64,000 nucleotides of DNA from a virus. The number at the start of each line of letters is the position of its first letter. Position 1 is the stretch's first letter. Under the pieces are notes generated by a model. The model was not told the origin of the DNA. It saw only the letters and a program-made list of their open reading frames with translations, and did no database searches. The DNA is taken from IMG/VR virus record IMGVR_UViG_3300025096_000004, positions 62,001 to 126,000 of that record; one strand, 5' to 3'. Below are positions 50,258-63,930 of the stretch, in pieces. Both the position numbers and the translations under genes were made by a program.

Positions 50258-50424
50258 AAATCGATATTAAAACAATGATGTCTATCTTGGCAGCATCCGC
50301 CATCCTCGGCGGTTTTTATTATACAACTCAACATCGGCTTGATCTTCTTGAGGCAGACATTGCAGACCTTGAGACTGAAATTACGAAGGTCCGCAAAATT
50401 GCAAACAGGAAAAACAAACAATGA
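50254..50424 (+). CDS. Short single-pass membrane protein (56 residues)
   Basis: A small frame that fills an otherwise empty 163-base gap: its ATG overlaps the previous stop (ATGA) and its TGA overlaps the next ATG (ATGA), which strongly supports translation. It has a short charged start, one hydrophobic segment (residues 9-24, MSILAASAILGGFYYT), then a heptad-like acidic/Leu helix (RLDLLEADIADLETEITKV) and a basic end. It has the same plan as its upstream neighbour in miniature. Function unknown; it could be a partner in the possible lysis set. Confidence 0.7.
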   Translation: MKIDIKTMMSILAASAILGGFYYTTQHRLDLLEADIADLETEITKVRKIANRKNKQ

Positions 50425-51233
50425 AATTATCAAAAGAGCAGCTTAACCATATTATCAAAGAAGAACTACAGGGACAGATTCAGGATATAAAAGCAAAATT
50501 GATGACTATCGATGCCTCGGGAGATCCGAATGCTAAGGGTTGGAAATATTGGAAATATGCAGGTAGCGGCCCAAGTGATTTCGAAATAGTAGATAGCTAT
50601 CTTAAAGCATCCGGTGAGCCCGGTCTTTCAAGCCCCGACACTGATCGAACCCCAAGCGAAGAGGAAGAACAGCAATGGGGGAATTCAATGGATGATGTAT
50701 TCGCGTCTATGCATACCAAATTGAACAAAGAATCCAAACAAATGAAATTAACAAAAGAACAACTTGCAAATATCATCAAAGATGAACTTGCGAAGACACT
50801 AAAAGAATATGGCCCATTTGGTTCTGCGATGGAACATTCTCTTTACGACAAGGTCAAATCAAACATTCAAAGGATTTCCCATGATGGATCCAAAGGTCTG
50901 GAAGTTCGGAAACATGTAACATTGTTGCAGAAACTGGAAGACAGCAGTTGGGACCCTGATGAATTCAACAACCCAGAGACAGCACACGGAGTGTGGACGG
51001 ATGTTTTTATGGACACCATGAATGATACCTATTGGGATGGCAAACAAGAAGTTGATATTAGATTTTCAACACCGGAAATAGAGGAAATGTGTCCTGACTG
51101 CGGCCCCGTCTGGGACCAAGTGGTGAGAGATAACGGAATGGACGGCCCCGGCTACGGCTCAGAACAAGAACCATGGTCCGACATCGTCGACGCTGTGAAA
51201 GAGAAGAACCCACAATATAAGGATTTTGAATAA
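50421..51233 (+). CDS. Protein with two KEQL-type leader peptides, probable head protein
   Basis: A 270-residue acidic protein. It starts with MKLSKEQLNHIIKEEL, and residue 108 begins a second full leader, MKLTKEQLANIIKDEL, at nucleotide 50742, so the frame looks like two former genes joined in frame. The same leader opens genes at 51233, 51492, 58812 and 59593. It is an amphipathic helix ending in IKEE, which fits the (L/I)xE rule of T4-type prohead proteases, so I infer a capsid-targeting peptide. The C-terminal part (150-270) is acidic with CPDCGP (233-238) and no recognised domain. Confidence 0.65.
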   Translation: MKLSKEQLNHIIKEELQGQIQDIKAKLMTIDASGDPNAKGWKYWKYAGSGPSDFEIVDSYLKASGEPGLSSPDTDRTPSEEEEQQWGNSMDDVFASMHTKLNKESKQMKLTKEQLANIIKDELAKTLKEYGPFGSAMEHSLYDKVKSNIQRISHDGSKGLEVRKHVTLLQKLEDSSWDPDEFNNPETAHGVWTDVFMDTMNDTYWDGKQEVDIRFSTPEIEEMCPDCGPVWDQVVRDNGMDGPGYGSEQEPWSDIVDAVKEKNPQYKDFE

Positions 51234-51490
51234 TGAAACTAACAAAAGAACAACTTGCGAAGATTATTAAAGAAGAGATAGGACAGATGGCAGAAGCTGG
51301 CCGCTATGGCCTTGGTTCACAAAGGCCCGATTCCTCTTTCAATGAATTGCCCGATGAACCAACAACAATGTCGGGAGCCGAATCAGCAAATGATTTGCGA
51401 ACAGCTATTGCACAGTTTGTCGCAGACAATCCACAACTCTCAGACCCCAAAGCAACAATCATGGCTATTATAGATGAGGCATTGAGATAA
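51233..51490 (+). CDS. Small protein with KEQL-type leader
   Basis: An 85-residue protein. MKLTKEQLAKIIKEEI is followed by a Gly/Ser/Pro/Asp-rich segment and a short helix (SANDLRTAIAQFVADNPQL). The first 44 bases are nearly identical to those of the next gene, including 38 identical bases. Possible prohead-protease sites are IKE and the following EE. The small size and disordered middle would suit an internal head protein. The ATG overlaps the preceding stop by one base. Confidence 0.6.
   Translation: MKLTKEQLAKIIKEEIGQMAEAGRYGLGSQRPDSSFNELPDEPTTMSGAESANDLRTAIAQFVADNPQLSDPKATIMAIIDEALR
51239..51276 (+). repeat. 38-base direct repeat, copy 1 (leader coding)
   Basis: 38 bases starting CTAACAAAAGAACAACTTGC are identical at 51239-51276 and 51498-51535, spaced by 259 bases. 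Both encode LTKEQLAKIIKEE. Identity at synonymous positions indicates recent duplication or gene conversion. Confidence 0.9.
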
Positions 51491-51491
51491 G

Positions 51492-51905
51492 GTGAAGCTA
51501 ACAAAAGAACAACTTGCGAAGATTATTAAAGAAGAATATGCCAATGTTAAAGAATCGTGGCAACAAAAGATGTTCGGCGGAGAAGAGGAAATAATTCCAC
51601 CATCCGAACCCGCCCCCGCTTCTAAAGAATCTGAGAGTTGGAAGACTCTCGAAAGACTTGTGAGAGCTACCAACAAAGAATTTCCTGAATTGAATTTGGG
51701 CTTCCCTCTGCTTCGTAAATTTTACAAACTACACCGAGCCCATGGCCGCCAAGATATAGGATGGAGATTGCCAAAGATCACACAAATCATTCCAATGGAA
51801 GGTGGCCGATACGACATAGTATTCGCCGATGGCACCCAAGAAGTGTATCAAGATCGCTTTACTGACAGGGGCCACCGTGGAAGCGCTTTCCGAAGTACTT
51901 ATTAG
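51492..51905 (+). CDS. Protein with KEQL-type leader, GTG start
   Basis: A 137-residue protein that starts with GTG one base after the preceding stop. The leader KLTKEQLAKIIKEEY is followed by a Pro/Glu-rich linker (EEEIIPPSEPAPASKESES) and a compact domain (about 48-137) with GRQDIGWRLPKITQIIPMEG and YDIVFADGTQEVYQDRF, probably beta-rich. No family recognised. GTG instead of ATG suggests it is made at a lower level than its neighbours. Likely head-associated by its leader. Confidence 0.6.
   Translation: MKLTKEQLAKIIKEEYANVKESWQQKMFGGEEEIIPPSEPAPASKESESWKTLERLVRATNKEFPELNLGFPLLRKFYKLHRAHGRQDIGWRLPKITQIIPMEGGRYDIVFADGTQEVYQDRFTDRGHRGSAFRSTY
51498..51535 (+). repeat. 38-base direct repeat, copy 2 (leader coding)
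   Basis: Second copy of the repeat at 51239-51276, in the same reading phase relative to its gene. Confidence 0.9.
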
Positions 51906-51952
51906 ATGAGCTTCGAGGTCATAAAAGAAAAAAATCTTTTTGAAAAAATATG

Positions 51953-51981
51953 TTGCACAAATCGTATAACCATGTTATATT
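51953..51981 (+). promoter_or_regulatory. Host-type sigma70 promoter P3 (extended -10)
   Basis: A weak -35 TTGCAC (51953-51958), 17-base spacer and TATATT (51976-51981) preceded by TGT. The 17 bases TGTTATATTATTATTAT (51973-51989) are identical to promoter P2. Here the expected start, about 51988, leaves a 35-base leader containing GAGGAGG before the ATG at 52023. The 117-base gap holds nothing else convincing. Confidence 0.65.
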
Positions 51982-52022
51982 ATTATTATTACTTAAATTG
52001 TCTAATGTATAGAGGAGGATAG

Positions 52023-52448
52023 ATGAAAAGTTTTGTTTTAGCGTTCTTATTGGTTTACTCGCCACCTGCCAACGCAGAAGAGCCGGTGTTCACCCCACTT
52101 AAAAAAGGTCAAAAAGCCCCTTTCGATGGGAGGTTGTTTAATAACGCAGCCGTTTCTAAATTCATTATAGAAGACAGGCTAAAGGTCGAACAGTGTAATG
52201 TTCAAATCGAATATGAAGTTGGAAAAGCAAATGCCGCCTCAAAATATCAATTTGATCTCCATTCAGCAAAGTGTGAAGCTGACGACCACAGACTTCAAGA
52301 TATGATAGCCATTCGAGACGACGAGATAAAGTTTTTGAGAAAGTCATATGAGCCCCCGAAACACCAATGGTGGCTCGCCGGTGGATTTGTGGTTGGAGCA
52401 GCCTCCGCCATCGGCATCATGTATGCTGTTGCTCCGGGACTACGATGA
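52023..52448 (+). CDS. Exported protein with C-terminal membrane anchor, spanin-like
   Basis: A 141-residue protein with GAGGAGG before the ATG. The N-terminal signal peptide MKSFVLAFLLVYSPPANA is probably cut after Ala18 (no lipobox Cys). The periplasmic part begins with KKGQKAPFDGRLFNN, a GxxAPFxGxLxxxxA motif I know from small phage membrane proteins, then a helical stretch, and ends in a transmembrane helix (about 115-136, WWLAGGFVVGAASAIGIMYAV). Signal at one end and anchor at the other resembles unimolecular spanins, but the lipid-anchor Cys is absent. It is driven by its own host-type promoter P3 and overlaps the next gene by ATGA. Confidence 0.65.
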   Translation: MKSFVLAFLLVYSPPANAEEPVFTPLKKGQKAPFDGRLFNNAAVSKFIIEDRLKVEQCNVQIEYEVGKANAASKYQFDLHSAKCEADDHRLQDMIAIRDDEIKFLRKSYEPPKHQWWLAGGFVVGAASAIGIMYAVAPGLR

Positions 52449-52822
52449 AGGAAAAAGATCCCAACTATGTTGCAAAGGTGGAACAAGCCATAGCGAAGAA
52501 ATATGGCGAAGAAACAATTCAACACCCAAAGAAAGATTGGACGAATGAAAAAGAAAAGGAATACCTTGAGCAACAAAAACAATTACACTTCAAAGATATT
52601 CAAGAAGAAGATATTGACAAAGTTCAAGTAAATGGAGTTTTTGTTCCCAAAAAACTAATTAAGAAGAACTCTAATCGTTCTTGTCCCGTTTGTAATATAT
52701 ATTCATTCAAGTCAAACGATGATGTGTATATGTCAAAGTTTGAGTGTTGTGAAAAGTGTTATATCCAATGGGTCGAAGGTCGAGAAGAACGTTGGAAAAC
52801 CGGATGGAGACCAAATAACTAA
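52445..52822 (+). CDS. Zinc-ribbon protein of the packaging cluster
   Basis: A 125-residue protein; the ATG overlaps the previous stop (ATGA), and longer in-frame starts lie inside the preceding gene. The N-terminal half is charged and helical; the C-terminal half has a four-cysteine ribbon: Cys80-x2-Cys83, then FECCEKC with Cys101/102 and Cys105, followed by YIQWVEGREERWKTGWRP. I associate this ribbon and the EGREERWKxGWRP end with proteins near the terminase in large aquatic phages. It might act in packaging, for example as a small-terminase-like DNA-binding protein, but this is inference. Its stop overlaps the next ATG by one base. Confidence 0.65.
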   Translation: MKEKDPNYVAKVEQAIAKKYGEETIQHPKKDWTNEKEKEYLEQQKQLHFKDIQEEDIDKVQVNGVFVPKKLIKKNSNRSCPVCNIYSFKSNDDVYMSKFECCEKCYIQWVEGREERWKTGWRPNN

Positions 52823-53295
52823 TGGCAACAAAAGTAACAGCATCAACTTTAAAAGTATCTGTTAAAGAGGAAATCACTCTTAACGGCAAGAAACATGAAT
52901 ACCGCCATGAGCAGTCCATTGCTGATATCAATATGATTTCACAGCGAATTGTGAGAGTTCCGTACACTGGTACTGAAATAATTTTATCATTTGGAAGTGC
53001 GATTGGTGCCGGCACATATATTGCAGGAGACGTAAAGTATATTCGCGTAACAAATTTAGATGATGCTAATTTTGTTAAATTGGGACTACTTGATTCCGGC
53101 GCTGGTGATCGAGCTTATTTTAAACTTGAAAAGGGCGATACTATGATTTTTCACAATACAAAATTAGAGGCAAAAGCAGATACTAGCGGTGCATGGGTTG
53201 CTTTTGCGGATATTGAATCAATTAACGCGATAGCAGATTCCACCCTCGCCATCCCCGTCGATATAGAAGTTTTCGTTGCATCAAGTCAAAGTTAA
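52822..53295 (+). CDS. Probable small structural protein (beta-sandwich)
   Basis: A 157-residue protein with almost entirely beta-type text (RIVRVPYTGTEIILSFGSA; GDVKYIRVTNLDDANFVKLGLLD; LEKGDTMIFHNTKLEAKAD). No Cys, signal or enzyme motif. Such compact beta proteins commonly decorate capsids or close the neck. The pattern 'xxLxxGxxxxFxxxKLxxx' recalls the two proteins at 63114 and 63520, but similarity is weak. It lies between the zinc-ribbon gene and the pre-terminase gene. Confidence 0.6.
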   Translation: MATKVTASTLKVSVKEEITLNGKKHEYRHEQSIADINMISQRIVRVPYTGTEIILSFGSAIGAGTYIAGDVKYIRVTNLDDANFVKLGLLDSGAGDRAYFKLEKGDTMIFHNTKLEAKADTSGAWVAFADIESINAIADSTLAIPVDIEVFVASSQS

Positions 53296-53309
53296 GGAGA
53301 AACTAAATA

Positions 53310-53861
53310 ATGGCTAATTCAGAAATGTTAAAAGTAGTACAAGGACTGGCACAAGCCGTCTCCGATATTAAAGCAAACGGTCACGATGAACGTTACGCTT
53401 ATGATGGCGAAGCTCGCACAGTTGGTCTCAAAAGAGAAGAGGGAGACATTATTCTTGATAAAAGAGTTAATGATGGTTTTACTGTTAAATTTGTGGGCCA
53501 TATGCTTTGCATTCACTATCAAGCTGACATTATGTTAAAAGATATTTATGGTGGCAAGTTTGAAAATGAAATGCAACTTATGATCAATCAAGTTAAAAAG
53601 GCAATTCAAAAAGAATATAAAAAGGTTACTGGCGATTCAGTCACTTTAACTGGCGTTGACGAACCATATATTTTGGCTTCTTCAGTATCAAGGGTTCGCT
53701 CCTTTGTCCAAGCTCATCAATATTTTAAAATTTCTGGAATCAAAGAAAACGAGTATACTGGTGGCTCCGAAGATCGAAAAATTGAAGACTCATGGCGAAA
53801 ATTTTTAGACCTTGATAATAAAAATAAGCGACCACCCAACGACACAAGACCAAAATCATGA
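53310..53861 (+). CDS. Conserved protein before terminase, unknown
   Basis: A 183-residue protein with AAGGAGA upstream. It is mixed alpha/beta (VQGLAQAVSDIKANG; VNDGFTVKFVGHMLCIHYQ; MQLMINQVKKAIQKEYKKVTG) and has a charged, Pro-ending tail. The fold could be that of a tail-terminator or neck protein, since an early helix, then strands, then a long helix and strands is a common plan there, but I cannot prove it. It stands 9 bases before the terminase, the usual place of a small terminase subunit; no helix-turn-helix is obvious. Confidence 0.6.
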   Translation: MANSEMLKVVQGLAQAVSDIKANGHDERYAYDGEARTVGLKREEGDIILDKRVNDGFTVKFVGHMLCIHYQADIMLKDIYGGKFENEMQLMINQVKKAIQKEYKKVTGDSVTLTGVDEPYILASSVSRVRSFVQAHQYFKISGIKENEYTGGSEDRKIEDSWRKFLDLDNKNKRPPNDTRPKS

Positions 53862-53870
53862 TGAGAGATT

Positions 53871-55454
53871 ATGGCCTATCAACCTTCAAAACAAGAAATT
53901 GTAAAAGAGATTCTTAAATCAGGCAAAGATCCTGTTTATTTTATTAATAATTATTGTCGCATCTCGCACCCTATGAGGGGCTTGATCTCTTTTAAGACAT
54001 ATCCTTATCAAGATGATTTGCTTAATGATTTTAATGATTACCGCTTCAGCATTATTTTAAAAGCCCGCCAGCTAGGAATTTCAACCATTACTGCTGCTTA
54101 TTGCGTTTGGATGATGCTGTTTCATAGAGATAAGAATGTTCTTGTAATGGCAACCAAATTCGGAACAGCATCAAACTTGGTTAAAAAAGTTAAGGCGATG
54201 ATGAAGAACCTTCCTCCTTGGATTCGCATTTCCAACATTAAGGTGGATAATCGATCTTCATTCGAGCTTCACAATGGGTCTCAAATTAAAGCAACATCAA
54301 CATCCGGTGATGCGGGTCGTTCCGAAGCGCTCTCTCTGTTAGTGATTGATGAGGCTGCCCATGTGGACGGGCTAGATGAATTATGGACTGGTCTTTATCC
54401 TACACTATCAACAGGCGGCAGGTGTATTGCCCTATCAACACCCAATGGGGTCGGTAATTGGTTCCACAAGACTTATGTCGACGCTGATAATATGGAAAAC
54501 GATTTTCATCCAATCAACTTGGCGTGGGACGTACATCCTGAACGCGATAGGGTTTGGTTTGAAAAAGAGACAAAAAATATGTCTCGGAGACAAATTGCTC
54601 AAGAGTTGGAGTGTAACTTTAACACATCAGGAGATACAGTGATCCATCCCGATGATTTAGCTAGATTGAACGCCGCAACTAAAGAGCCAAATTATAGAGT
54701 CGGCCACGACAGAAATTTTTGGCTTTGGGAGAAGTTCGCCGAAAACTTTACTTATCTTATGGTCGCCGACGTAGCCCGAGGTGATGGTTCAGACTCTTCA
54801 ACCTTTCATATCTTGAAGCTAGAAACAATGGAGGTGGTGGCTGAATATCAAGGAAAACCCAGTCTTGATCTATATTCAAATATATTGTTTCAAGCTGGTC
54901 ATGAATATGGAAAGTGTTTGCTAGTGGTTGAAAACAATGGAATAGGCATTTCAATTCTCGAGAAGCTTATAGATTTAGGATATCCAAATTTATATTATTC
55001 CATAAAAGGGACTCACGAGTTTGTTGATTCGATACAGGGCGAAGTAAACAATAGAGCCCTTCCGGGGTTCACAACCTCAACCAAGACCCGCCCATTGATT
55101 GTGGCAAAATTAGAAGAGTTCATAAGGAATGGACTAATTACTTTATATTCTAGTAGGTTGTTTCATGAACTTAAGACATTTATTTGGCATAACGGTAAAC
55201 CACAAGCGATGCGTTCCTATCATGATGATTTGGTGATGTCATTGGCGATAGCTTGTTGGGTTAGGGATACAGCCCTACAGACAAGCCAAAAAGATGTTCA
55301 ATACAAAAAAGCAATGCTTGACGGTATGTTCATGAAAACTACACAAATGAGTACCACAATTGAAGGAATGGAAGGGCATAAAAAATCTTTTGATGAGAAA
55401 TACGAAGAACAACAGAAGCAAGCAACTGATTTTGCTTGGATTTTTAAAGGATAA
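53871..55454 (+). CDS. Terminase large subunit (T4 gp17-like)
   Basis: A 527-residue protein (T4 gp17 has 610). The ATPase half has the terminase-style Walker A KARQLGIST (residues 64-72), the TSTSGDAGRS loop and Walker B LLVIDEAAH (Asp160, Glu161), then ALSTPNG as coupling motif. The RNase H-like nuclease half has VADVARGDGSD (Asp300), VVENNGIG (Glu354) and YHDDLVMS (Asp452/453) as metal ligands. It pumps DNA into the prohead and cuts concatemers. It is followed after 4 bases by the portal gene, its docking partner. Confidence 0.95.
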   Translation: MAYQPSKQEIVKEILKSGKDPVYFINNYCRISHPMRGLISFKTYPYQDDLLNDFNDYRFSIILKARQLGISTITAAYCVWMMLFHRDKNVLVMATKFGTASNLVKKVKAMMKNLPPWIRISNIKVDNRSSFELHNGSQIKATSTSGDAGRSEALSLLVIDEAAHVDGLDELWTGLYPTLSTGGRCIALSTPNGVGNWFHKTYVDADNMENDFHPINLAWDVHPERDRVWFEKETKNMSRRQIAQELECNFNTSGDTVIHPDDLARLNAATKEPNYRVGHDRNFWLWEKFAENFTYLMVADVARGDGSDSSTFHILKLETMEVVAEYQGKPSLDLYSNILFQAGHEYGKCLLVVENNGIGISILEKLIDLGYPNLYYSIKGTHEFVDSIQGEVNNRALPGFTTSTKTRPLIVAKLEEFIRNGLITLYSSRLFHELKTFIWHNGKPQAMRSYHDDLVMSLAIACWVRDTALQTSQKDVQYKKAMLDGMFMKTTQMSTTIEGMEGHKKSFDEKYEEQQKQATDFAWIFKG

Positions 55455-55458
55455 ATAA

Positions 55459-57411
55459 ATGGCGAAAAATAACAAAAACCCATATAATAATGAATCAGAT
55501 TTATTCAGATCACTGACTAGATTGTTTTCTGGGCCCATCTTGAACAGAAGAACCCAAACTGGCCGACAGTTGCGTCGGAGACATTTGGATGTCTATTCTA
55601 AATGGTTTAAGTCTGCTTCAGGAAGACAGTTCAAGAAAGCAGAATACAACCCAATGAATATAACTTCTGCCAACATGATTTCAAATCGAAATAGATCAGA
55701 ACGATATGTTGACTTTGACCAAATGGAGTATATGCCAGAGATTGCATCGTCATTGGATATTTACGCAGATGAGATGACAACTCATTCTGATTTGCAACCA
55801 ATGCTCAAGATTAAATGCCCAAACGAAGAAATTAAATCAATTCTTCAGGCTCTTTATCATAATGTGCTTAACGTTGAATATAATTTATTTGGTTGGTCTC
55901 GTACAATGTGTAAATATGGAGATTTGTTTTTATATATGGAACTCGATGAATCTCTTGGAGTCAAGAATGTTATCGGACTCCCACAACAAGAAGTCGAGCG
56001 CTTAGAGGGCGAGGATATGTCAAATCCGAACTATGTCCAATTCCAATGGAACTCCGGCGGCCTTACTCTTGAAAACTGGCAAGTAGCTCATTTTCGAGTT
56101 TTGGGACATGATAAACATGCTCCATATGGAACATCAGTTCTTGAAGGCGCCCGCCGAATCTGGCGACAATTAACTCTTTTAGAAGATGCAATGATGGCTT
56201 ATCGTATTGTACGCTCTCCAGAGCGCCGTGTGTTTTATATTGACGTTGGTGCCATTGCTCCTCAAGATGTTGAACAATATATGCAAAAGGTTATGACCCA
56301 AATGAAGCGTCATCAGGTTGTTGATCCAACAACCGGCAAGATTGATCTTCGCTATAACCCGCTTTCAATTGAGGAAGATTACTATATTCCGGTTCGTGGC
56401 ACTTCAAATACCAAGATTGAAAACCTCCAAGGTGGCCAATTCACTGGAACTGTCGAGGATGTAAAATATTTAAGAGATAAATTATTTGCTGCTCTCAAAG
56501 TGCCCCAATCTTACTTGACTATGGGCGAAGGCGCCACCGAAGACAAGACCACCCTTGCTCAAAAGGACGTTCGCTTTGCCAGAACCATCCAACGCCTCCA
56601 GCGCGTTGTGACCTCGGAGCTTGAAAAGATAGGAATTATTCACTTATATACTCTTGGGTTCCGAGGTGATGATCTTTTATCATTTAAGCTTGGATTGAAC
56701 AACCCTTCTAAAATTGCAGAACTTCAGGAACTTGAACATTGGAAACAGAAATTTGATGCCGCCGGAGCCGCGACCGAAGGGTTCTTTTCAAAGCGCTGGA
56801 TTGCCGAAAATATGCTTGGCATTTCTGAAGATGAATTTCTTAGAAACCAAAGGGAGATGTTCTTTGATAAGAAGTTTATGGCAAGCCTTGAAGCTTCCGC
56901 CGAAGGTGCCGCCGCAGAAGGCGGTGAAGGTGGAGGATTGGGCGAACTCGGCGATCTGGGGGGTGAAGGTGGAGAAGAAGGAGACCTCGGCGACCTCGGC
57001 GATTTGGGCGATGAAGGGGAAGAGGCTGGTGGAGAAGAAGCCACAGCCGCCGATGAAAAGGAATCGCCCTTGCTGGCTGAACCGCCGGGAAAAAGAGACG
57101 ATAGTCAATATGGCATCCGCAACAAAGGGGGAACCTCAAAGAGAATTAAGAGCGAAGCAGGTATAACCAGAGACGCCATCAGGGCCACTCCAAGAACAAT
57201 TAATCCGGGCTGGAAGGGAGACCATGGTATGAATCCCCTTGCCAATATGTCGAAAAGTTATGTCACTTCCGGACCAATGGGAATTATGTTTGAGCAAAAA
57301 ACTGTTGACAATGATTTGTTGGAAGAACAAAAACTATTTAGTGTAAATAATGAAATAGAACACCTTTTAAAAAGTCTAAAGGAGAAGAAAAAATATGAAG
57401 ATGAAACATAA
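55459..57411 (+). CDS. Portal protein (T4 gp20-like) with Gly/Glu/Asp-rich insert
   Basis: A 650-residue protein (T4 gp20 has 524). Early features are DFDQMEYMPEIASSLDIYADE and WSRTMCKYGDLFLYMELDE; later VDPTTGKIDLRYNPLSIEEDYYIP and GATEDKTTLAQKDVRFARTI, all typical of the gp20 family, which forms the dodecameric DNA gate. Residues about 477-540 are a low-complexity stretch of Gly, Glu, Leu and Asp with repeated GDLGDLGDLG, absent from T4, then a C-terminal tail. The gene overlaps the following one by 17 bases. Confidence 0.9.
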   Translation: MAKNNKNPYNNESDLFRSLTRLFSGPILNRRTQTGRQLRRRHLDVYSKWFKSASGRQFKKAEYNPMNITSANMISNRNRSERYVDFDQMEYMPEIASSLDIYADEMTTHSDLQPMLKIKCPNEEIKSILQALYHNVLNVEYNLFGWSRTMCKYGDLFLYMELDESLGVKNVIGLPQQEVERLEGEDMSNPNYVQFQWNSGGLTLENWQVAHFRVLGHDKHAPYGTSVLEGARRIWRQLTLLEDAMMAYRIVRSPERRVFYIDVGAIAPQDVEQYMQKVMTQMKRHQVVDPTTGKIDLRYNPLSIEEDYYIPVRGTSNTKIENLQGGQFTGTVEDVKYLRDKLFAALKVPQSYLTMGEGATEDKTTLAQKDVRFARTIQRLQRVVTSELEKIGIIHLYTLGFRGDDLLSFKLGLNNPSKIAELQELEHWKQKFDAAGAATEGFFSKRWIAENMLGISEDEFLRNQREMFFDKKFMASLEASAEGAAAEGGEGGGLGELGDLGGEGGEEGDLGDLGDLGDEGEEAGGEEATAADEKESPLLAEPPGKRDDSQYGIRNKGGTSKRIKSEAGITRDAIRATPRTINPGWKGDHGMNPLANMSKSYVTSGPMGIMFEQKTVDNDLLEEQKLFSVNNEIEHLLKSLKEKKKYEDET

Positions 57412-58210
57412 TAAGAAAAGAAATACCGCTTTTCTTTACGAGTCTTTGGTTAAAGAGTTAACAAAAGCAATAGTCAGAAAACAACATGTTAGAAAAAAAC
57501 AAGTTGTTGAGATTATAAAAAAATATTTTAATAATAACTCTGTGCTTAAAGAGGAATTAGATATTTATAATTCTTTAATTGCAACCGGCTCTTTAAATAA
57601 AGAATATAGTTTGCGACTTATGCATGAAAGTAAAAAGGACTATGATTTGCTTGACAAAAAGAAAATCTTTAACATGCAAACAAGCTTGATTAAAGAGATT
57701 AATGAATCACTATCCAATCAAGTATTCGCAAACTTTATTTCAAACTATCGTCAACTTGCTAATATTGGACAATTTTTTGATTCTAACAATTTGAATGCAA
57801 AACAAAGAATTTTGGTTGAATCAAAGGTTGTTGGAATGTTGATAAATAAGAAGAAAGAGACCAAAGATATGAAGCATATTGATAATTTAACTTACAACAC
57901 TTTTGTGAATAAATTTAACAGAACCTATGAGTCATCGCTGAGAAAAGAGCAGAAAGATTTGTTAACAAATTACATTACGTCTTTTTCTGACAACGGCCTT
58001 GGGCTGAAGTCTTTTCTTAATGAGGAGATTGGACGTCTAAAGGTGGTTCTGAATGCTGCTGCCTCTAAATCAAATATTGATCGGCAACTTGCCGAGAACA
58101 CAAAAAAAGTTATAATAAAATTGGAATCATTTTCTAAAAAGCAAATAACTGAACAACTGGTTAGAGATATATTTTATATTCAAGACCTAGCTTATGAGGT
58201 GAATAAGTAA
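57395..58210 (+). CDS. Probable prohead core/assembly protein
   Basis: A 271-residue protein, basic and almost wholly helical (RKQHVRKKQVVEIIKKYF; FFDSNNLNAKQRILVESKVVG; KQITEQLVRDIFYIQDLAYEV). A second ATG two codons on (57401) is possible; GGAG lies 10 bases before the first. In T4 the genes between portal and protease (67, 68) encode prohead core proteins, and this gene occupies that place with overlaps on both sides (17 bases with portal, 1 base with the next). Sequence similarity to gp67/gp68 is not evident, so the role rests on position. Confidence 0.6.
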   Translation: MKMKHNKKRNTAFLYESLVKELTKAIVRKQHVRKKQVVEIIKKYFNNNSVLKEELDIYNSLIATGSLNKEYSLRLMHESKKDYDLLDKKKIFNMQTSLIKEINESLSNQVFANFISNYRQLANIGQFFDSNNLNAKQRILVESKVVGMLINKKKETKDMKHIDNLTYNTFVNKFNRTYESSLRKEQKDLLTNYITSFSDNGLGLKSFLNEEIGRLKVVLNAAASKSNIDRQLAENTKKVIIKLESFSKKQITEQLVRDIFYIQDLAYEVNK

Positions 58211-58812
58211 TGACCATCAATGTTAAAATTACCAATGATCAGCCCGAAGAGGATTCCAATAAGGTGAACGTCAAGATCAAAAAATCTGATGAAATACAGG
58301 TTGAGATCGTAAAAGAAGACCCTCCAATATCGTTTAAGTTAAATGCTCGCAAAGCAATGAATGGAGATATTATGATTTTTGATCATGCTGATATCGACAT
58401 CATCATTTTAACAGAAAAGAAAAAAGTTGTCGCCTTTGCAAAAGAAATCATGAGCGATATTGTTTATGGTGCTGAATCGAGATTATTTGAATATTTGCGC
58501 AAACGAGGTATCGTTGCTTTTGACTCAATACAGGGCGGCAATGTTTATGGATCCCTTGAGGCGAAAATACATGAATCAACAGAGTTCGACCCAATTAAGA
58601 TGACATTACTTAATGTATCTAAATGGATGGATGACGAACGCCCCTATTTTGAATCATTAAAGGCTCATGATGAAATGATGGACGATGCAATTTTGGAACC
58701 AGATGTGGAAAATTCAACAGAACTTGGCGAAGTTCCCCATGAAGAAGAGAAGGGTTCGATTTTGCAGCATAATTTGTTTGCACCATACTTGTACGGGAGA
58801 TACACATACTAA
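58210..58812 (+). CDS. Conserved head-cluster protein, unknown
   Basis: A 200-residue protein. The N-terminus is two charged strands (INVKITND; KVNVKIKKSD), then a mixed domain (ARKAMNGDIMIFDHADIDIIIL; KKKVVAFAKEIMSDIVYGAESRLFEYL) and an acidic C-terminal tail (EPDVENSTELGEVPHEEEKG). I have the impression of a protein kept beside the portal in large aquatic phages. No motif allows a function. Both ends overlap neighbouring genes by one base, so expression is tightly coupled to the head operon. Confidence 0.6.
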   Translation: MTINVKITNDQPEEDSNKVNVKIKKSDEIQVEIVKEDPPISFKLNARKAMNGDIMIFDHADIDIIILTEKKKVVAFAKEIMSDIVYGAESRLFEYLRKRGIVAFDSIQGGNVYGSLEAKIHESTEFDPIKMTLLNVSKWMDDERPYFESLKAHDEMMDDAILEPDVENSTELGEVPHEEEKGSILQHNLFAPYLYGRYTY

Positions 58813-59156
58813 TGAAAATAACACAAAAACAACTTAGAAAGATTATAAAAGAGGAAGTTGAAGAGACCATGAAAGAATATGGTTCTGATAAAAGAAGTAT
58901 TCCAAAGCAAGCTTGGTTAAAAGCCATTTCTGATGCCAACATGACGGATCAAAACCACCGCCCAATAGGCGAACAGACGTTAAATAATTATGGATATTAT
59001 TATCAGCCAAATCGCGACATTGGAGACTCTCGGTGGACCGGCGCCTTTTATAAACCTTACGATGCAATGGCGGATAGCGGAGGTATTTATGCTGAAAATT
59101 GGGCCGACAAGGCCATTAAAGCAGCAATGGAAATGTCTGGCGATGTTGTCGAATAA
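58812..59156 (+). CDS. Small head-cluster protein with KQL-type leader
   Basis: A 114-residue protein. The leader MKITQKQLRKIIKEEV is followed by EETMKEYGSDKRS, where KEYG also follows the internal leader of the protein at 50421. The remainder is Asn/Tyr/Asp-rich (NYGYYYQPNRDIGDSRW) with no known domain. The IKEE and VEE triplets are candidate sites for the prohead protease encoded 1.1 kb downstream. It may be packaged in the head. Confidence 0.6.
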   Translation: MKITQKQLRKIIKEEVEETMKEYGSDKRSIPKQAWLKAISDANMTDQNHRPIGEQTLNNYGYYYQPNRDIGDSRWTGAFYKPYDAMADSGGIYAENWADKAIKAAMEMSGDVVE

Positions 59157-59172
59157 ACAATAAGAGGTACTA

Positions 59173-59490
59173 ATGGAATTAATTTGGTTTATGTTAGCCG
59201 CTTTTGGCTTAACACAAATTCTTGTATACGGGAAGATTTTTGATAACTATAGGCCAGCCAAAGAACAATACAAAGGATGGGGAGAAGTATTTCATTGTCC
59301 AATGTGTATGGGCTTTTGGACTGGTGTATTTTTATTTTTCATAAATGGTTTCACAGAACTATTTACATTTGATTATAATTTAATTAATATGTTGATATGT
59401 GGATGCACGTCCTCGGGCACGTCTTATATACTTAATATGTTATTTGGAGATTATGGTCTTAATCTAAACATTGGAGATAAAGATGAATAA
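59173..59490 (+). CDS. DUF1360-like small membrane protein
   Basis: A 105-residue protein with AAGAGG before the ATG. It has hydrophobic segments near residues 3-18, 46-66 and 70-90, and the motif FHCPMCMGFWTGVFLFF (40-56). CPxCxGFWxG is the signature of DUF1360-type membrane proteins, which occur in phages and bacteria without known function. It is an odd neighbour for head genes and is followed directly by a terminator, so it probably closes a transcription unit. Superinfection or host-membrane functions are conceivable. Confidence 0.7.
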   Translation: MELIWFMLAAFGLTQILVYGKIFDNYRPAKEQYKGWGEVFHCPMCMGFWTGVFLFFINGFTELFTFDYNLINMLICGCTSSGTSYILNMLFGDYGLNLNIGDKDE

Positions 59491-59548
59491 AGTATGGACA
59501 CAAAAGTGGATGCTTCAACCAGTAAGGCATTGTTGTAAGGGTAGCTGA
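59483..59548 (+). CDS. 21-codon reading frame before terminator
   Basis: ATG overlaps the end of the membrane-protein gene, with GGAG 6 bases upstream. The frame encodes 21 residues (two Trp and two adjacent Cys) and stops 3 bases before the terminator stem. It may be a real small protein or a leader peptide; chance is also possible. Confidence 0.35.
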   Translation: MNKVWTQKWMLQPVRHCCKGS

Positions 59549-59551
59549 CTC

Positions 59552-59579
59552 AAGCGGGTAGCGCCCGCTTTTTATTTTT
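59552..59579 (+). terminator. Intrinsic (rho-independent) terminator
   Basis: A perfect 7-base stem AAGCGGG / CCCGCTT with a 5-base loop (TAGCG), followed by a T-rich tract TTTTTATTTTT. It is the only convincing intrinsic terminator seen in the window. It separates the membrane-protein gene from the protease/scaffold part of the head cluster. Confidence 0.88.
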
Positions 59580-59592
59580 AAGGAATTAACAG

Positions 59593-59949
59593 ATGAAATT
59601 GACAAAAGCCAGACTTAAACAGATAATTTTAGAAGAAATTAACGAAATGCGTGTCACGGATATTGCCGGCGATGATGAGGATCGTGCAATTGATGCACAC
59701 CGCCGCGCCAAGAGAGCCCGTGGCGAATATCCCCGCCGACCAACTGGTGGATATGAAGATACTCGATGCCCTGCCGAAATTGAACAAGCTCGCAAGGAAG
59801 GAATGGTCGAGGCCACAAGAAATATTTTAGAAATGTTCCCCGGCGGCGGCCTTATGGTAGATCAAAATACATATAATGCTATTCAAGAAATGGCCCCTGA
59901 ACTGCTTGACAGAATATCGGTCACCCGATCACGACGAAGAGAACAATAA
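59593..59949 (+). CDS. Small head-cluster protein with KxxL-type leader
   Basis: A 118-residue protein just after the terminator, with AAGGA before the ATG. The leader MKLTKARLKQIILEEI ends in ILEE, again fitting (L/I)xE cleavage. Next is an Arg/Asp-rich segment (DDEDRAIDAHRRAKRARGEYPRRP), then a helical part (IEQARKEGMVEATRNILEMFPGG) and a basic end. Highly charged, mixed-sign composition suits a DNA-associated internal head or core protein. It overlaps the protease start by one base. Confidence 0.6.
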   Translation: MKLTKARLKQIILEEINEMRVTDIAGDDEDRAIDAHRRAKRARGEYPRRPTGGYEDTRCPAEIEQARKEGMVEATRNILEMFPGGGLMVDQNTYNAIQEMAPELLDRISVTRSRRREQ

Positions 59950-60560
59950 TGTCAAAAAAGCTTTTAACAGAATATTTTGAATTGTGTCCCGATGGTGCAT
60001 GTCTCGATCTTTTGAACGAAAGAGAAAAGAAAGAGGTCATGGAAGGTGGTATGTATTTAACAGGCCGCATTCAGTCCGCTGATGTTAAAAACGGCAACGG
60101 ACGAAAGTATCCTGAAAAAGTCTTAAGACGAGAAATGGAGAATTATATGAACGTTGTTCGAGACAATAGGGCTACCGGAGAATTGGATCATCCTGATGAT
60201 TCTGTTATTAATTTAAAGAATGTATCTCACATGATTACAGACATCTGGTGGAAGGGAAAAGATGTAATGGGCAAAATCAAAGTTCTTAATACACCATCCG
60301 GCAGAATATTAAAAGATCTTGTAAATGCTGGTGTAAAAATTGGCATTTCTTCTAGAGGTCTTGGTTCTGTCAAAGAACAGATGGGGGAATCGATTGTGGA
60401 AGATGATTTTCAACTAATCTGTTTTGATATTGTATCAGAACCATCCACACCAAATGCTTATGTTTTCCCCAAATCAGATCAGCAGCGCTTCAAGATGGCT
60501 GTGCGCGAAGGAAAAGAAAACAGTATCAACAATTTATTTAAAAAAATATTGAGGGATTAA
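59949..60560 (+). CDS. Prohead core protease (T4 gp21-like)
   Basis: A 203-residue protein (T4 gp21 has 212). GELDHPDDSVINLKNVSHMI (residues 77-96) contains the catalytic His81, and VKIGISSRGLGSV (129-141) contains the serine nucleophile of this assemblin-like serine protease family. In T4 the enzyme cleaves core proteins, packaged internal proteins and the capsid protein after (L/I)xE. Its N-terminal KKLLTEYFEL and the leaders of neighbouring gene products would be natural targets. It marks the head-assembly part of the operon. Confidence 0.93.
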   Translation: MSKKLLTEYFELCPDGACLDLLNEREKKEVMEGGMYLTGRIQSADVKNGNGRKYPEKVLRREMENYMNVVRDNRATGELDHPDDSVINLKNVSHMITDIWWKGKDVMGKIKVLNTPSGRILKDLVNAGVKIGISSRGLGSVKEQMGESIVEDDFQLICFDIVSEPSTPNAYVFPKSDQQRFKMAVREGKENSINNLFKKILRD

Positions 60561-60563
60561 AAA

Positions 60564-60598
60564 ATGAGCTATTCAAGTGATAAAAAACATAAGTTAAT
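60564..60598 (+). repeat. 35-base direct repeat, copy 1 (start of DGHHRW genes)
   Basis: The first 35 bases of the two DGHHRW genes are identical (60564-60598 and 61559-61593), and similarity continues beyond with single changes. This points to tandem gene duplication or conversion of the leader. Confidence 0.9.
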
Positions 60599-61562
60599 GT
60601 TTGAGAGTTGGAGAAAATTTGTCTCCGAAGAGGCAGATCCAAAGAAAATGTCTGGAGAGGATTTTCCAATGAAACTTGGCGATGTGGGTTCAAAATATAC
60701 ACCCCAACAGGCTAAAAAAATTGCAGTAGGTGGACTTAAGGATGGAGATAAATCAGACGATATTATTAATGCCAAGCCCGGCGGAGGTCCAGTTTCTAAA
60801 CTGAAGCCCTCTCAATCATCAATGAATATCGGAAAAGCTGTTGCTTTTGCAATAGCAGCGATTCTTGAAAACGAACCTTTTCCAACAGGTCCCGGGGGCG
60901 ATTTGGGAGCAATTATAACCAGTGATAATCATATTATGGATGGCCACCATCGTTGGATCGCTAGTGGAATGATCGACCCATCTGCTAAAGTTCAAGGATT
61001 TATAGTAGATTATCCCGCGAAACAATTGATTTCTGTTCTAAATGTTCTTACTCTTCACTTTACAAAAAGTCCCAAAGGAAAACCCGGAGGGGGCAGTTTT
61101 AAAGATTTTAATGAAAAGGCAATCGGAGCGGTATTACAAAAATATGCTGCTGATGGGGTGTGGTCCGCTGGTGATGACCCTGCCATGGTTATGAGCGCTT
61201 TGGAACAATTTACAGGACAAACTGGCGAAGCAGCCGTCCCCCTTGCTGCAAAGAAAATGGCCAAAAACGTAAGTCAATTGACACTTTCTGTTCCTTCTGG
61301 TTTTCCACAGAGAGAAGATATGCCTATCATCAGCGCCAAAAAAGGACACTTGGCCTTGGCAGTCAAATTGTTAAACTCCGGCGCTATTGATGTAAATCCA
61401 CAATATGCTGGAGACACCGGTGAGCCCGGCGGAGTCGTTCCTGATTCTGGGGGAACATATGAAAAAGGCTCCCAAGCTGGCGCTGATTCCGATCAAGCCG
61501 AAAGAGAAAGGAAAATGAGAGACCTTGAAGAAAACAGAAAACGACGAAGAAGAAAAAAATGA
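60564..61562 (+). CDS. DGHHRW (ParB/sulfiredoxin-like) head-cluster protein, copy 1
   Basis: A 332-residue protein. The start, HKLMFESWRKFVSEE (residues 9-23), is a leader typical of head-region proteins in large phages and resembles the T4 capsid-targeting type (xxFIxE); VSE is a possible cleavage site. The core motif IITSDNHIMDGHHRW (117-131) is that of ParB/sulfiredoxin-fold proteins, which bind or hydrolyse nucleotides; DGHHRW replaces the GxxR pocket. Later parts are Gly/Ala-rich, and the C-terminus is very basic (ENRKRRRRKK), suggesting DNA contact. The next gene is a paralogue. The place after the protease is that of the scaffold gene in T4. Confidence 0.75.
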   Translation: MSYSSDKKHKLMFESWRKFVSEEADPKKMSGEDFPMKLGDVGSKYTPQQAKKIAVGGLKDGDKSDDIINAKPGGGPVSKLKPSQSSMNIGKAVAFAIAAILENEPFPTGPGGDLGAIITSDNHIMDGHHRWIASGMIDPSAKVQGFIVDYPAKQLISVLNVLTLHFTKSPKGKPGGGSFKDFNEKAIGAVLQKYAADGVWSAGDDPAMVMSALEQFTGQTGEAAVPLAAKKMAKNVSQLTLSVPSGFPQREDMPIISAKKGHLALAVKLLNSGAIDVNPQYAGDTGEPGGVVPDSGGTYEKGSQAGADSDQAERERKMRDLEENRKRRRRKK

Positions 61563-61593
61563 GCTATTCAAGTGATAAAAAACATAAGTTAAT
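61559..61593 (+). repeat. 35-base direct repeat, copy 2
   Basis: Second copy of the sequence at 60564-60598, again beginning with the ATG of a DGHHRW gene. Confidence 0.9.
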
Positions 61594-62458
61594 TTTTGAG
61601 AATTGGAGACGGTTTCTAAAAGAAGACGCCATTGACGATTTCATTAAGGGAAGTGGAAAGGGATTGCATGACTATACCGCTATGCTAAAGAGCATCGCCG
61701 GCGACCCTGAATTCCGTAAATTAGCACTTTCGGGCCGTGACGACAGCGCTGGCCCAGCCGATGAATCAATCCAAGTGCATGGCGGTAAGCCGGTACCAGC
61801 CATCGATTTGGTGCCAACTCAATTTGACATTGATACGGAAAAAAGTCTTGGAGATCAAATGGTTAACCGCTTCAACGGAACTGAGTATGCCTTAGAAGAG
61901 GGCTCTCCAATTCTTATGGGCTCTAAGGAGGGAAGAATTCCTGTATTGGTGTTCGACAATAAATATATTTTAGATGGTCACCACCGATGGTCGCAGGTGG
62001 TTATGACAAACCCCGGCGGCATCATGGCAGTTGATAATTTGTCTGCCCCAGCTTTTGGCTCAGGCCAAGAAGGCGCAGAACTTGCTTTAAAGGCAACACA
62101 GTTGGCCATCGCCGGAATCGCCGGAAATGTTGTCACAAATGACACTGATGTTAATCTTTTAGAAGTAGATGTTGCCACTTTGGAAAAATATGTTTTAAGT
62201 AGAATAAGTGATGAAGTTGTGCAAATGCTTTTTAATGCCGAAAAGATACCCAAAGCGGATAAAAGATTGGCTGCCAAAATGTACGGCAAGAATCTTATGT
62301 TGGTCCAAAGAGCACAAAAGGGTAAATTCCAAAGAAAACTTGGCATGCCTCAAGCCGCCGATTCCGGAACTAACCAAGCTAAAGTCAACAAGGCCCTTGA
62401 ACAAGGTCTTGTCAATTTTGATTCCCCTGAGAGAGATGATATAAAGGGCAAAAAATGA
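61559..62458 (+). CDS. DGHHRW (ParB/sulfiredoxin-like) head-cluster protein, copy 2
   Basis: A 299-residue paralogue of the previous gene, overlapping it by ATGA. The leader is nearly identical (HKLIFENWRRFLKED), with LKE as possible protease site. The motif VFDNKYILDGHHRW lies at 131-144. Between leader and motif, and after the motif, the two proteins differ strongly, so only leader and core are conserved. It lacks the Arg-rich tail of copy 1. Substrate unknown; ParB-like folds include CTPases, nucleases and sulfiredoxins. Likely co-packaged or part of the core. Confidence 0.75.
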   Translation: MSYSSDKKHKLIFENWRRFLKEDAIDDFIKGSGKGLHDYTAMLKSIAGDPEFRKLALSGRDDSAGPADESIQVHGGKPVPAIDLVPTQFDIDTEKSLGDQMVNRFNGTEYALEEGSPILMGSKEGRIPVLVFDNKYILDGHHRWSQVVMTNPGGIMAVDNLSAPAFGSGQEGAELALKATQLAIAGIAGNVVTNDTDVNLLEVDVATLEKYVLSRISDEVVQMLFNAEKIPKADKRLAAKMYGKNLMLVQRAQKGKFQRKLGMPQAADSGTNQAKVNKALEQGLVNFDSPERDDIKGKK

Positions 62459-62856
62459 ACAAAAATGAATTAAAAAAGATTTTGAAACCTCTGATTAAAC
62501 AGTGCATCAAGGAGGTGATTTTCGAAGACGGCACTCTTTCGAATATCATATCGGAGGTTGCAAAGGGCCTCGGATCTACAACTGTTATTTCCGAGGCTCA
62601 ACCAACTATACAAAAACCAATGCAGCTTGAGTCTGATAGTACAGCAGCAAAGCGTCTAGAAAGGAAAAAACGTATGCTTGATTCTATTGGTAAAGATGCC
62701 TATAACGGCGTTGACTTGTTTGAGGGAACAACCCCAACTACCCAGCCCAAAGAACGGGGCCAAGGTCCCCTTGCAGGAGTAGACCCAAGAGACCCCGGTG
62801 TAGATATATCTAACTTTGGCTCTTTAGGGCACTGGAAGAAGCTGGCAGGAAACTAA
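62455..62856 (+). CDS. Head-cluster protein with basic amphipathic start, possible scaffold
   Basis: A 133-residue protein overlapping the previous stop by ATGA. The N-terminal helix NELKKILKPLIKQCIKEVIF is followed by EDGTLSNIISEVAKGLG, a pattern I recall from large aquatic myophages near capsid genes. The middle is Lys/Arg-rich, the end Gly/Pro/Asp-rich. IKE and ISE triplets could be protease sites, as in a core or scaffold protein that is degraded during maturation. No sequence link to T4 gp22 is visible, and the assignment rests on context. Confidence 0.6.
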   Translation: MNKNELKKILKPLIKQCIKEVIFEDGTLSNIISEVAKGLGSTTVISEAQPTIQKPMQLESDSTAAKRLERKKRMLDSIGKDAYNGVDLFEGTTPTTQPKERGQGPLAGVDPRDPGVDISNFGSLGHWKKLAGN

Positions 62857-63113: not shown

Positions 63114-63509
63114 ATGTCAAAGTATGGTGTAGGCTTAAGAAGTGTTGGCTCTTATCAAGTATCTGGGACCCCTTTTATAACAGGGAGTACAGTCCCAGCA
63201 AACGATGAAGATATCATTTCTTTCCCATATGTTACAAAAAAGGTATGGGTTAAAAATACAAAATCATCGGGGTCCACAAAGGTTATTAGAGTTCACTTTC
63301 AAGCAACCGGCTCTGGAAATGTGATTTCTGGCAAACATTTTGTTGAATTAGCGGCACAAGAGAGTGTAACTCTTGATGTAAAGTGTAGTAAAATATATAT
63401 AACAGTCAAAGCATCAGGCCAGACTTGCGATTATCAAGTTTATGCATCTTTAACAAATATACCAACTGACAGCATGTATACCCTGACAGGATCAGGAATA
63501 ACGGAGTAA
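63114..63509 (+). CDS. Small structural protein, tandem paralogue 1
   Basis: A 131-residue beta-rich protein. The start (GVGLRSVGSYQVSGTPFITG), the centre (SFPYVTKKVWVKN; HFVELAAQESVTLDVKCSKIYI) and the end (LTNIPTDSMYTLTGSGITE) are shared with the next gene. The compact beta plan and tandem copies in the head cluster suggest a capsid decoration or fibre protein. GAGG precedes the ATG. I recognise the start as one seen in structural proteins of large aquatic phages. Confidence 0.7.
   Translation: MSKYGVGLRSVGSYQVSGTPFITGSTVPANDEDIISFPYVTKKVWVKNTKSSGSTKVIRVHFQATGSGNVISGKHFVELAAQESVTLDVKCSKIYITVKASGQTCDYQVYASLTNIPTDSMYTLTGSGITE
63143..63172 (+). repeat. 30-base direct repeat, copy 1
   Basis: 30 bases beginning TGTTGGCTCTTATCAAGTAT are identical at 63143-63172 and 63549-63578 and encode VGSYQVSGTP in both tandem structural genes. 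Confidence 0.9.
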
Positions 63510-63519
63510 GGAGTGAATT

Positions 63520-63930
63520 ATGTCAAAATATAATGTAGGATTGAGAAATGTTGGCTCTTATCAAGTATCTGGGACCCCATGGTTAACTGGATCTAGTATA
63601 GCCGCCGCCACAACATATAATGTCTCCGGCGTAGCTGGAGAAATGATGTTGACATTTCCATATGTTACACAAACAGTCACGGTTGTCAACACTTCCGCCT
63701 CTGGGGCCACATTAATTCATTTTGTTTCTTCAAGTTCTCCGGGAAATGTTCACACCAACAAACATTTTATAACTTTAAACGCCGGGGAGTCTATCTCTTT
63801 TGATGTTAAATGTAAAGAAATATTTTTACACAACAACAGTGGGACCCAAACTTTTGAAATGATTGCTGATTTAACAAACATACCAATTCGTCGTATGTAT
63901 GAACTAACAGGATCTGGTATAACCGATTAG
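63520..63930 (+). CDS. Small structural protein, tandem paralogue 2
   Basis: A 136-residue paralogue of the preceding gene. The same blocks occur (NVGLRNVGSYQVSGTPWLTG; TFPYVTQTVTVVN; HFITLNAGESISFDVKCKEIFL; LTNIPIRRMYELTGSGITD) with about 5 added residues after the leader. It has its own AAGGAG site. It would form similar beta-sandwich units, perhaps with a different surface specificity on the capsid. Confidence 0.7.
   Translation: MSKYNVGLRNVGSYQVSGTPWLTGSSIAAATTYNVSGVAGEMMLTFPYVTQTVTVVNTSASGATLIHFVSSSSPGNVHTNKHFITLNAGESISFDVKCKEIFLHNNSGTQTFEMIADLTNIPIRRMYELTGSGITD
63549..63578 (+). repeat. 30-base direct repeat, copy 2
   Basis: Second copy of the bases at 63143-63172. Confidence 0.9.

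Follow-up and report, generated by a model that had tools for sequence, protein, structure and literature searches.

Phage T4 sends internal proteins into the core by means of residues of a capsid-targeting sequence (CTS), which gp21 removes (PMC9026906). Such sequences are carried by the internal proteins IPI-III and by Alt, and are cut by gp21 (PMC9026906, PMC3012670). The giant phages SPN3US and phiKZ have a gp21-related protease that cuts head proteins after x-x-Glu; in these phages some paralogues have identical N-termini, propeptides are mostly longer than 100 residues, and redundant sites are known within a propeptide (PMC5694885).

Packaged phage proteins evolve fast and have no common fold, which is why few of the proteins injected with the DNA have been identified. 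Should the repeated N-terminal leaders described below be targeting propeptides, sequence alone would suffice to list what uncultured phages inject.

The DNA analysed here ("the window") is a stretch of 64,000 nt, positions 62,001 to 126,000 of IMG/VR record IMGVR_UViG_3300025096_000004, such that window position 1 corresponds to genome position 62001. The full viral record comprises 191,495 bp (a 191-kb genome), and its source is an uncultured, marine, T4-like phage. The original prediction for this DNA held that five genes near those for terminase, portal and prohead protease begin with a near-identical leader of 16 residues, MKLTKEQLxxIIKEE, with a sixth copy inside the first gene, and that this leader targets unrelated proteins to the capsid and is cut at its terminal IKEE/ILEE. 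The relevant features are as follows, in window coordinates, with an arrow at each candidate cut:

50421..51233, + strand: ORF of 270 aa, a single frame that combines two leader-cargo modules of class A
50421-50486, + strand: leader 1 of this ORF, MKLSKEQLNHIIKEELQGQIQD, in which residue 22 is Asp, not Glu
50742..51233, + strand: module 2 of this ORF, leader MKLTKEQLANIIKDELAKTLKE with candidate cut site ↓YG, then cargo
51233..51490, + strand: class A leader protein of 85 aa, leader MKLTKEQLAKIIKEEIGQMAE↓AG
51492..51905, + strand: class A leader protein of 137 aa with a GTG start codon, leader ending EEYANVKE↓SW
53871..55454, + strand: large terminase, assigned by sequence, with its motif at the same place in relatives
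55459..57411, + strand: portal protein, assigned by sequence, with its motif at the same place in relatives
58812..59156, + strand: class A leader protein of 114 aa, leader MKITQKQLRKIIKEEVEETMKE↓YG
59593..59949, + strand: class A leader protein of 118 aa, with a site at IILE14 and residue 22 without a site
59949..60560, + strand: gp21-type prohead protease (phrog_207, E=1.6e-60), with its own N-terminal LLTE↓
60564..61562, + strand: class B leader protein, MSYSSDKKHKLMFESWRKFVSE↓EA, with a DGHHRW motif in the cargo
61559..62458, + strand: class B leader protein, paralogue of 60564, leader ending HKLIFENWRRFLKE↓DA
62455..62856, + strand: possible diverged leader, MNKNELKKILKPLIKQCIKEV, whose N-terminus groups with class A

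Leader copies in the source genome

The predicted leader, here termed class A, was found at all six positions where it had been placed: 50421, 50742 (internal), 51233, 51492, 58812 and 59593. These window copies do lie near the terminase, portal and protease genes, but that description does not extend to the whole set. A search of the rest of the genome for further leader proteins, as had been proposed, added five class A positions (genome 27179, 28357, 29171, 41049 and 170843), as well as leaders of two other classes, B and C. The class A profile, itself partly built from rows of this genome, gave 10 matches in it at E <= 1, nine of which had E < 0.001.

An all-against-all comparison of N-termini within the genome returned 56 gene pairs with a score of at least 38, the pair threshold, against 0 from shuffled N-termini; these 56 pairs are not leaders alone, as 11 small paralogous MKVGDL proteins group too. 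The latter occur in runs at genome 13351-17989 and 22302-22660. Such MKVGDLV proteins, 11 of which cluster here and about 20 in another genome (G031, L324), look like an expanded paralogous family and not a leader. Downstream of the leader cluster, a further pair of adjacent paralogues (window 63114-63509 and 63520-63930) starts with MSKYGVGLRSVGSYQVSGTP and MSKYNVGLRNVGSYQVSGTP, respectively. At genome 186785-188353, the start of a 522-aa ORF resembles that of a GroEL-type chaperonin.

The two-module ORF at 50421 has a counterpart at 365-952 of another locus (L098), which also contains two in-frame class A leaders and is independent of the window copy. Both ORFs may encode precursors split by the head protease. 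Cargo homologous to that of the 50742 module is encoded in L111 (7479) as an ORF with a leader of its own. At the DNA level, 51233 and 51492 have almost the same leader, as if one had recently been copied from the other, and homologues of 59593 stand directly upstream of the protease in three relatives (L010, L012 and L063).

Distribution among relatives

Relatives were drawn from 80 IMG/VR loci with a related protease and from the loci returned by two DNA-pattern scans. Within the 80 protease loci, class A leaders number 68 and in every case share the strand of the protease, and the totals in IMG/VR relatives reach 313 class A and 164 class B proteins. By blastp, the tails following these leaders fall into 315 mutually unrelated families, 230 of which occur with class A and 91 with class B. 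The remainders are as unrelated as had been supposed, and the set of leader-bearing proteins extends far beyond the original five genes.

In IMG/VR, 92 stretches match the class A DNA pattern; a scan of 84,980 bacterial and archaeal genomes gave no match. Neither T4, KVP40 nor the four cyanophages searched gave a match to the class A profile, and a tblastn search of cultured phages with the 22-aa leader, a query too short to be informative, was likewise empty. We did not find these leaders described in the open literature, which is weak evidence of novelty. Vibrio phage KVP40 (L369, L371) and Microcystis phage Mel-JY01 (L352) have repeated N-termini of their own near hydrophobic-x-Glu, MKFSEYQ..TEAFDRPA and MIKLKSLLxEIISDRVWH, respectively, some of which may be plain paralogues.

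Where the leaders end

The conserved class A segment measures about 22 residues, not 16. Its information content is high up to residue 16 and rises again at residues 19-22 (V-L-x-E); by about residue 24 it has fallen to background and stays there. End sites were counted with one sequence per tail family, selected by a pattern that spanned residues 1 to 15-16 only, and with L, I, V, M and F scored as hydrophobic, a set wider than the strict L/I. On this basis, hydrophobic-x-Glu with its Glu at residues 20-24 was present in 162 of the 230 class A families (70%), compared with 7-13% in control windows further on. As residues 20-24 lie outside the selection pattern, this enrichment was not built in. 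The Glu falls at residue 22 in 95 families and at residue 21 in 55, and some class A leaders, including those at window 50421 (Asp22) and 59593, have no site at 21/22.

IKE14, which corresponds to the cut proposed at IKEE/ILEE, is nearly invariant, but it lies inside the selection pattern and conservation extends beyond it. The pattern of conservation suggests that the main cut is likely to be at the hydrophobic-x-Glu of residue 21/22, where conservation stops, and that IKE14 may be an inner site that is also used. The redundant sites found within giant-phage propeptides would fit such a combination of IKE14 and LxE22.

The other classes end in a similar motif. Class B, (M..)KLIMENWRKYLxE, is present in the window on 60564 and 61559, whose leaders are nearly identical in DNA, and elsewhere at genome 32566, 33252 and 172383 by N-terminus comparison, with copies at genome 38682, 190164 and 191153 added by pattern search. 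When class B proteins were picked by the N-part alone, hydrophobic-x-Glu came next in 43 of 46 (control, 3.5%). Class C, MKIRIRK..LNE, has copies at genome 30359 and 33837 and a less clear one at 37173. Leader lengths span about 14-22 residues.

Association with T4-type heads

The motifs GEL(D/N)HP (here GELDHP) and SSRGLGS of the prohead protease are common to its aligned relatives and T4 gp21. The major capsid protein (MCP) matches phrog_138 (E=6.6e-72), and its propeptide ends in LL(R/K)E↓A, which is invariant in this phage and six relatives and directly precedes the region aligning with the T4 gp23 N-arm. By these sequence criteria the head is of the T4 type. A gp22-like core protein is encoded at genome 133275. 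Among leader-bearing contigs of at least 120 kb, 16 of 17 contain gp21. There are 13 class A contigs without gp21, 12 of which are without gp23 too, as is expected of fragments, and these 12 probably are fragments; in the other, gp23 is found 2.3 kb from the contig end.

Upstream of the terminase, within about 6 kb of it, class A genes are present in this genome and in three relatives, and two of these four genomes also have class A genes between portal and protease. Second leader clusters, away from the head genes, mix classes A and B.

Exchange of leaders on homologous cargo

Six tail families occur with both class A and class B leaders. Three pairs are the clearest, each with its class A site at residue 22, and in these the two hydrophobic-x-Glu sites superpose exactly in the protein alignment: SKVMNE↓SMPGMEPYDLS against NKFLKE↓SPPGMEPYDLS (VMNE↓SMPGMEPYDLSALVPKGED against FLKE↓SPPGMEPYDLSTLVPKGED), VLRE↓EMGSTIHFMDWL against FLIE↓GPQSTIHFMDWL, and VLRE↓NMGLKMFVLVGPPSVGKS against YLKE↓QETPLNLFVLVGPPSVGKS. 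The other three families are weaker cases, one being alignable only deep inside the proteins and two having no class A site at residues 20-24. Exchange between classes B and C was seen on VCPKATQDLELNTKNR proteins (L129 against L080, L062 and L074). Homologues that have no leader start at the leader boundary; they are a NUDIX protein and a protein of 58 aa from the same genome (G003). In these alignments, leaders of the three classes take each other's place in front of homologous cargo, and the leader shows modular behaviour, being acquired or lost at its boundary.

Cargo and its structure

An AlphaFold2 model of the largest class B family (49 members) had a pLDDT of 84 overall, and the only run below 50 was residues 1-18, the leader, which is modelled as an isolated helix detached from the folded domain. 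The solved structures nearest to this model are GNAT acetyltransferases; given E-values of 0.005-0.01 and modest TM-scores, a GNAT-like fold is likely but not certain. Pfam matches in cargo included NUDIX, AAA_33 kinase-like (P-loop), LysM, RNase_T exonuclease, cytidylyltransferase-like and DUF3293 domains; a kinase-like match is only suggestive, and most cargo had no Pfam match.

The protein at genome 28357 has R-S-ExE motifs conserved with two relatives (L016 and L335). As an ADP-ribosyltransferase it was not retained: it had no match in Pfam, PADLOC or the PDB, and its AlphaFold2 pLDDT was 32, for which reasons the likeness is a motif-level suggestion. Two ADP-ribosyltransferase-like class B cargos had no meaningful PDB match, and iterative HMM searches from ADP-ribosyltransferase-like cargo drifted to the leader itself. 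The GNAT-like, NUDIX, kinase-like, exonuclease, LysM and cytidylyltransferase-like cargos, and the few with ADP-ribosyltransferase-like motifs, could be counter-defence or takeover factors.

Some cargo segments seem, from their recurrence, to be shuffled among class A proteins. One, about ENITPENIxxVLxxLxKMG, recurs in otherwise different proteins (L061, L077, L124, L164, L246, L011 and others), and another is SEKQRRWACAQKDKPASxRADSLSAxEAEEMCTSKIEED.

Interpretation of the leaders

What the sequence itself shows is the identity of the leaders, their hydrophobic-x-Glu end, their interchange, cargo that is unrelated, and a protease and an MCP of the T4 type, with a propeptide site to match. We consider it probable that the repeated N-termini are interchangeable capsid-targeting propeptides of the T4 internal-protein kind, whose cargo would be packed, cut by the gp21-type protease and ejected. 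As the leaders end at the phage's own head-protease motif, they probably load proteins into the head to be delivered to the next host. The capsid-targeting function originally proposed is strongly favoured in comparative terms, albeit with the cut point moved, by leaders interchangeable at a gp21-type motif, co-occurrence with T4-type heads, the detached leader of the AlphaFold2 model and recovery of the T4 CTS. With respect to the last of these, the same N-terminus clustering applied to T4 as a positive control returned MKTYQEFIAE and MKTFKEFIKE together with the Alt N-terminus MELITELFDE; we take the first to be the T4 internal-protein leader and the last to be the Alt leader.

Core binding, cleavage, packaging and ejection are steps that we infer by analogy with T4. 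During head assembly, a leader would bind the prohead core and pull the attached cargo inside, where the gp21-type protease would cut past hydrophobic-x-Glu at about residue 22, and probably past IKE14 too, so freeing the cargo inside the head. The freed cargo would leave the head with the DNA at infection. Classes A, B and C would be alternative core-binding propeptides with the same role, among which evolution shifts cargo.

The leaders might instead be uncleaved docking tags, that is, amphipathic helices that recruit proteins to the portal, core, tail or another assembly, with the end Glu as a helix cap. The isolated helix of the class B model and the leaders missing a site at 21/22 would suit such a role, but we regard it as unlikely, given that three sequence-unrelated leaders all end at hydrophobic-x-Glu, that these sites superpose in swaps and that the propeptide of the MCP has a matching site at its end. 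Targeting elsewhere, to the host membrane, a phage-made compartment or the host degradation machinery, appears very improbable: the helix is amphipathic and rich in Lys and Glu, but a helix alone does not assign function, and such targeting leaves unexplained the protease-type end, the link to T4-type heads and the interchange with class B, which has the T4 CTS outline. Least credible of all, and rejected on codon use, is a translation or recombination signal at the gene start with incidental residue likeness; a few neighbours hardly differ in their leader DNA (51233/51492 and 60564/61559) and codon entropy is somewhat below that of the tails at some positions, but synonymous codons in the leaders vary nearly as much as in tails, so that conservation is mainly at the protein level, only a generic purine-rich ribosome-binding site precedes leader genes, and unrelated leaders stand in for each other on the same cargo.

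Beyond the reading of the leaders as capsid-targeting propeptides, we lean slightly towards a broader one, in which this marine T4-like lineage would have a general protein-loading system with interchangeable tags, hundreds of effector families gained by tagging, and fused multi-cargo precursors that are possibly split by the protease.

Comparison with known systems

Like the T4 CTS, the leaders are short segments at the extreme N-terminus, common to unrelated proteins (230 class A and 91 class B tail families); they end at a head-protease motif and are encoded with gp20/gp21/gp23-type head genes. In sequence they are unlike it: the class A profile matches nothing in T4, whose CTS reads MKTYQEFIAE, and class B resembles the CTS in outline only (M-K-..-(F/Y)-(L/I)-x-E). 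This mismatch weakens any claim of common descent and leaves that of like function unaffected. Class A is also longer, at about 22 residues compared with 10-19 for the T4 CTS. Unlike T4, moreover, there are several leader types per genome and hundreds of cargo families across relatives. The contrast with the long propeptides of SPN3US and phiKZ is greater, the leaders here being a short repeated module (about 14-22 residues) on unrelated cargo.

A cultured relative is available for testing in Flavobacterium phage immuto_2-6A (NC_055915). Its gp095 and gp094 start with MKKSELVKLIKEEL and MKKSQLREIIRKEL, respectively, and its gp077 and gp076 have common MENFDLKKFLxE-type leaders directly upstream of the terminase. 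It differs in that leader copies are few and diverged, and its protease is 43% identical. The leaders described here would supply new targeting tags, and the best reading of them, by analogy, is that their working principle is that of the T4 CTS, with different leader sequences and a much larger set of cargo.
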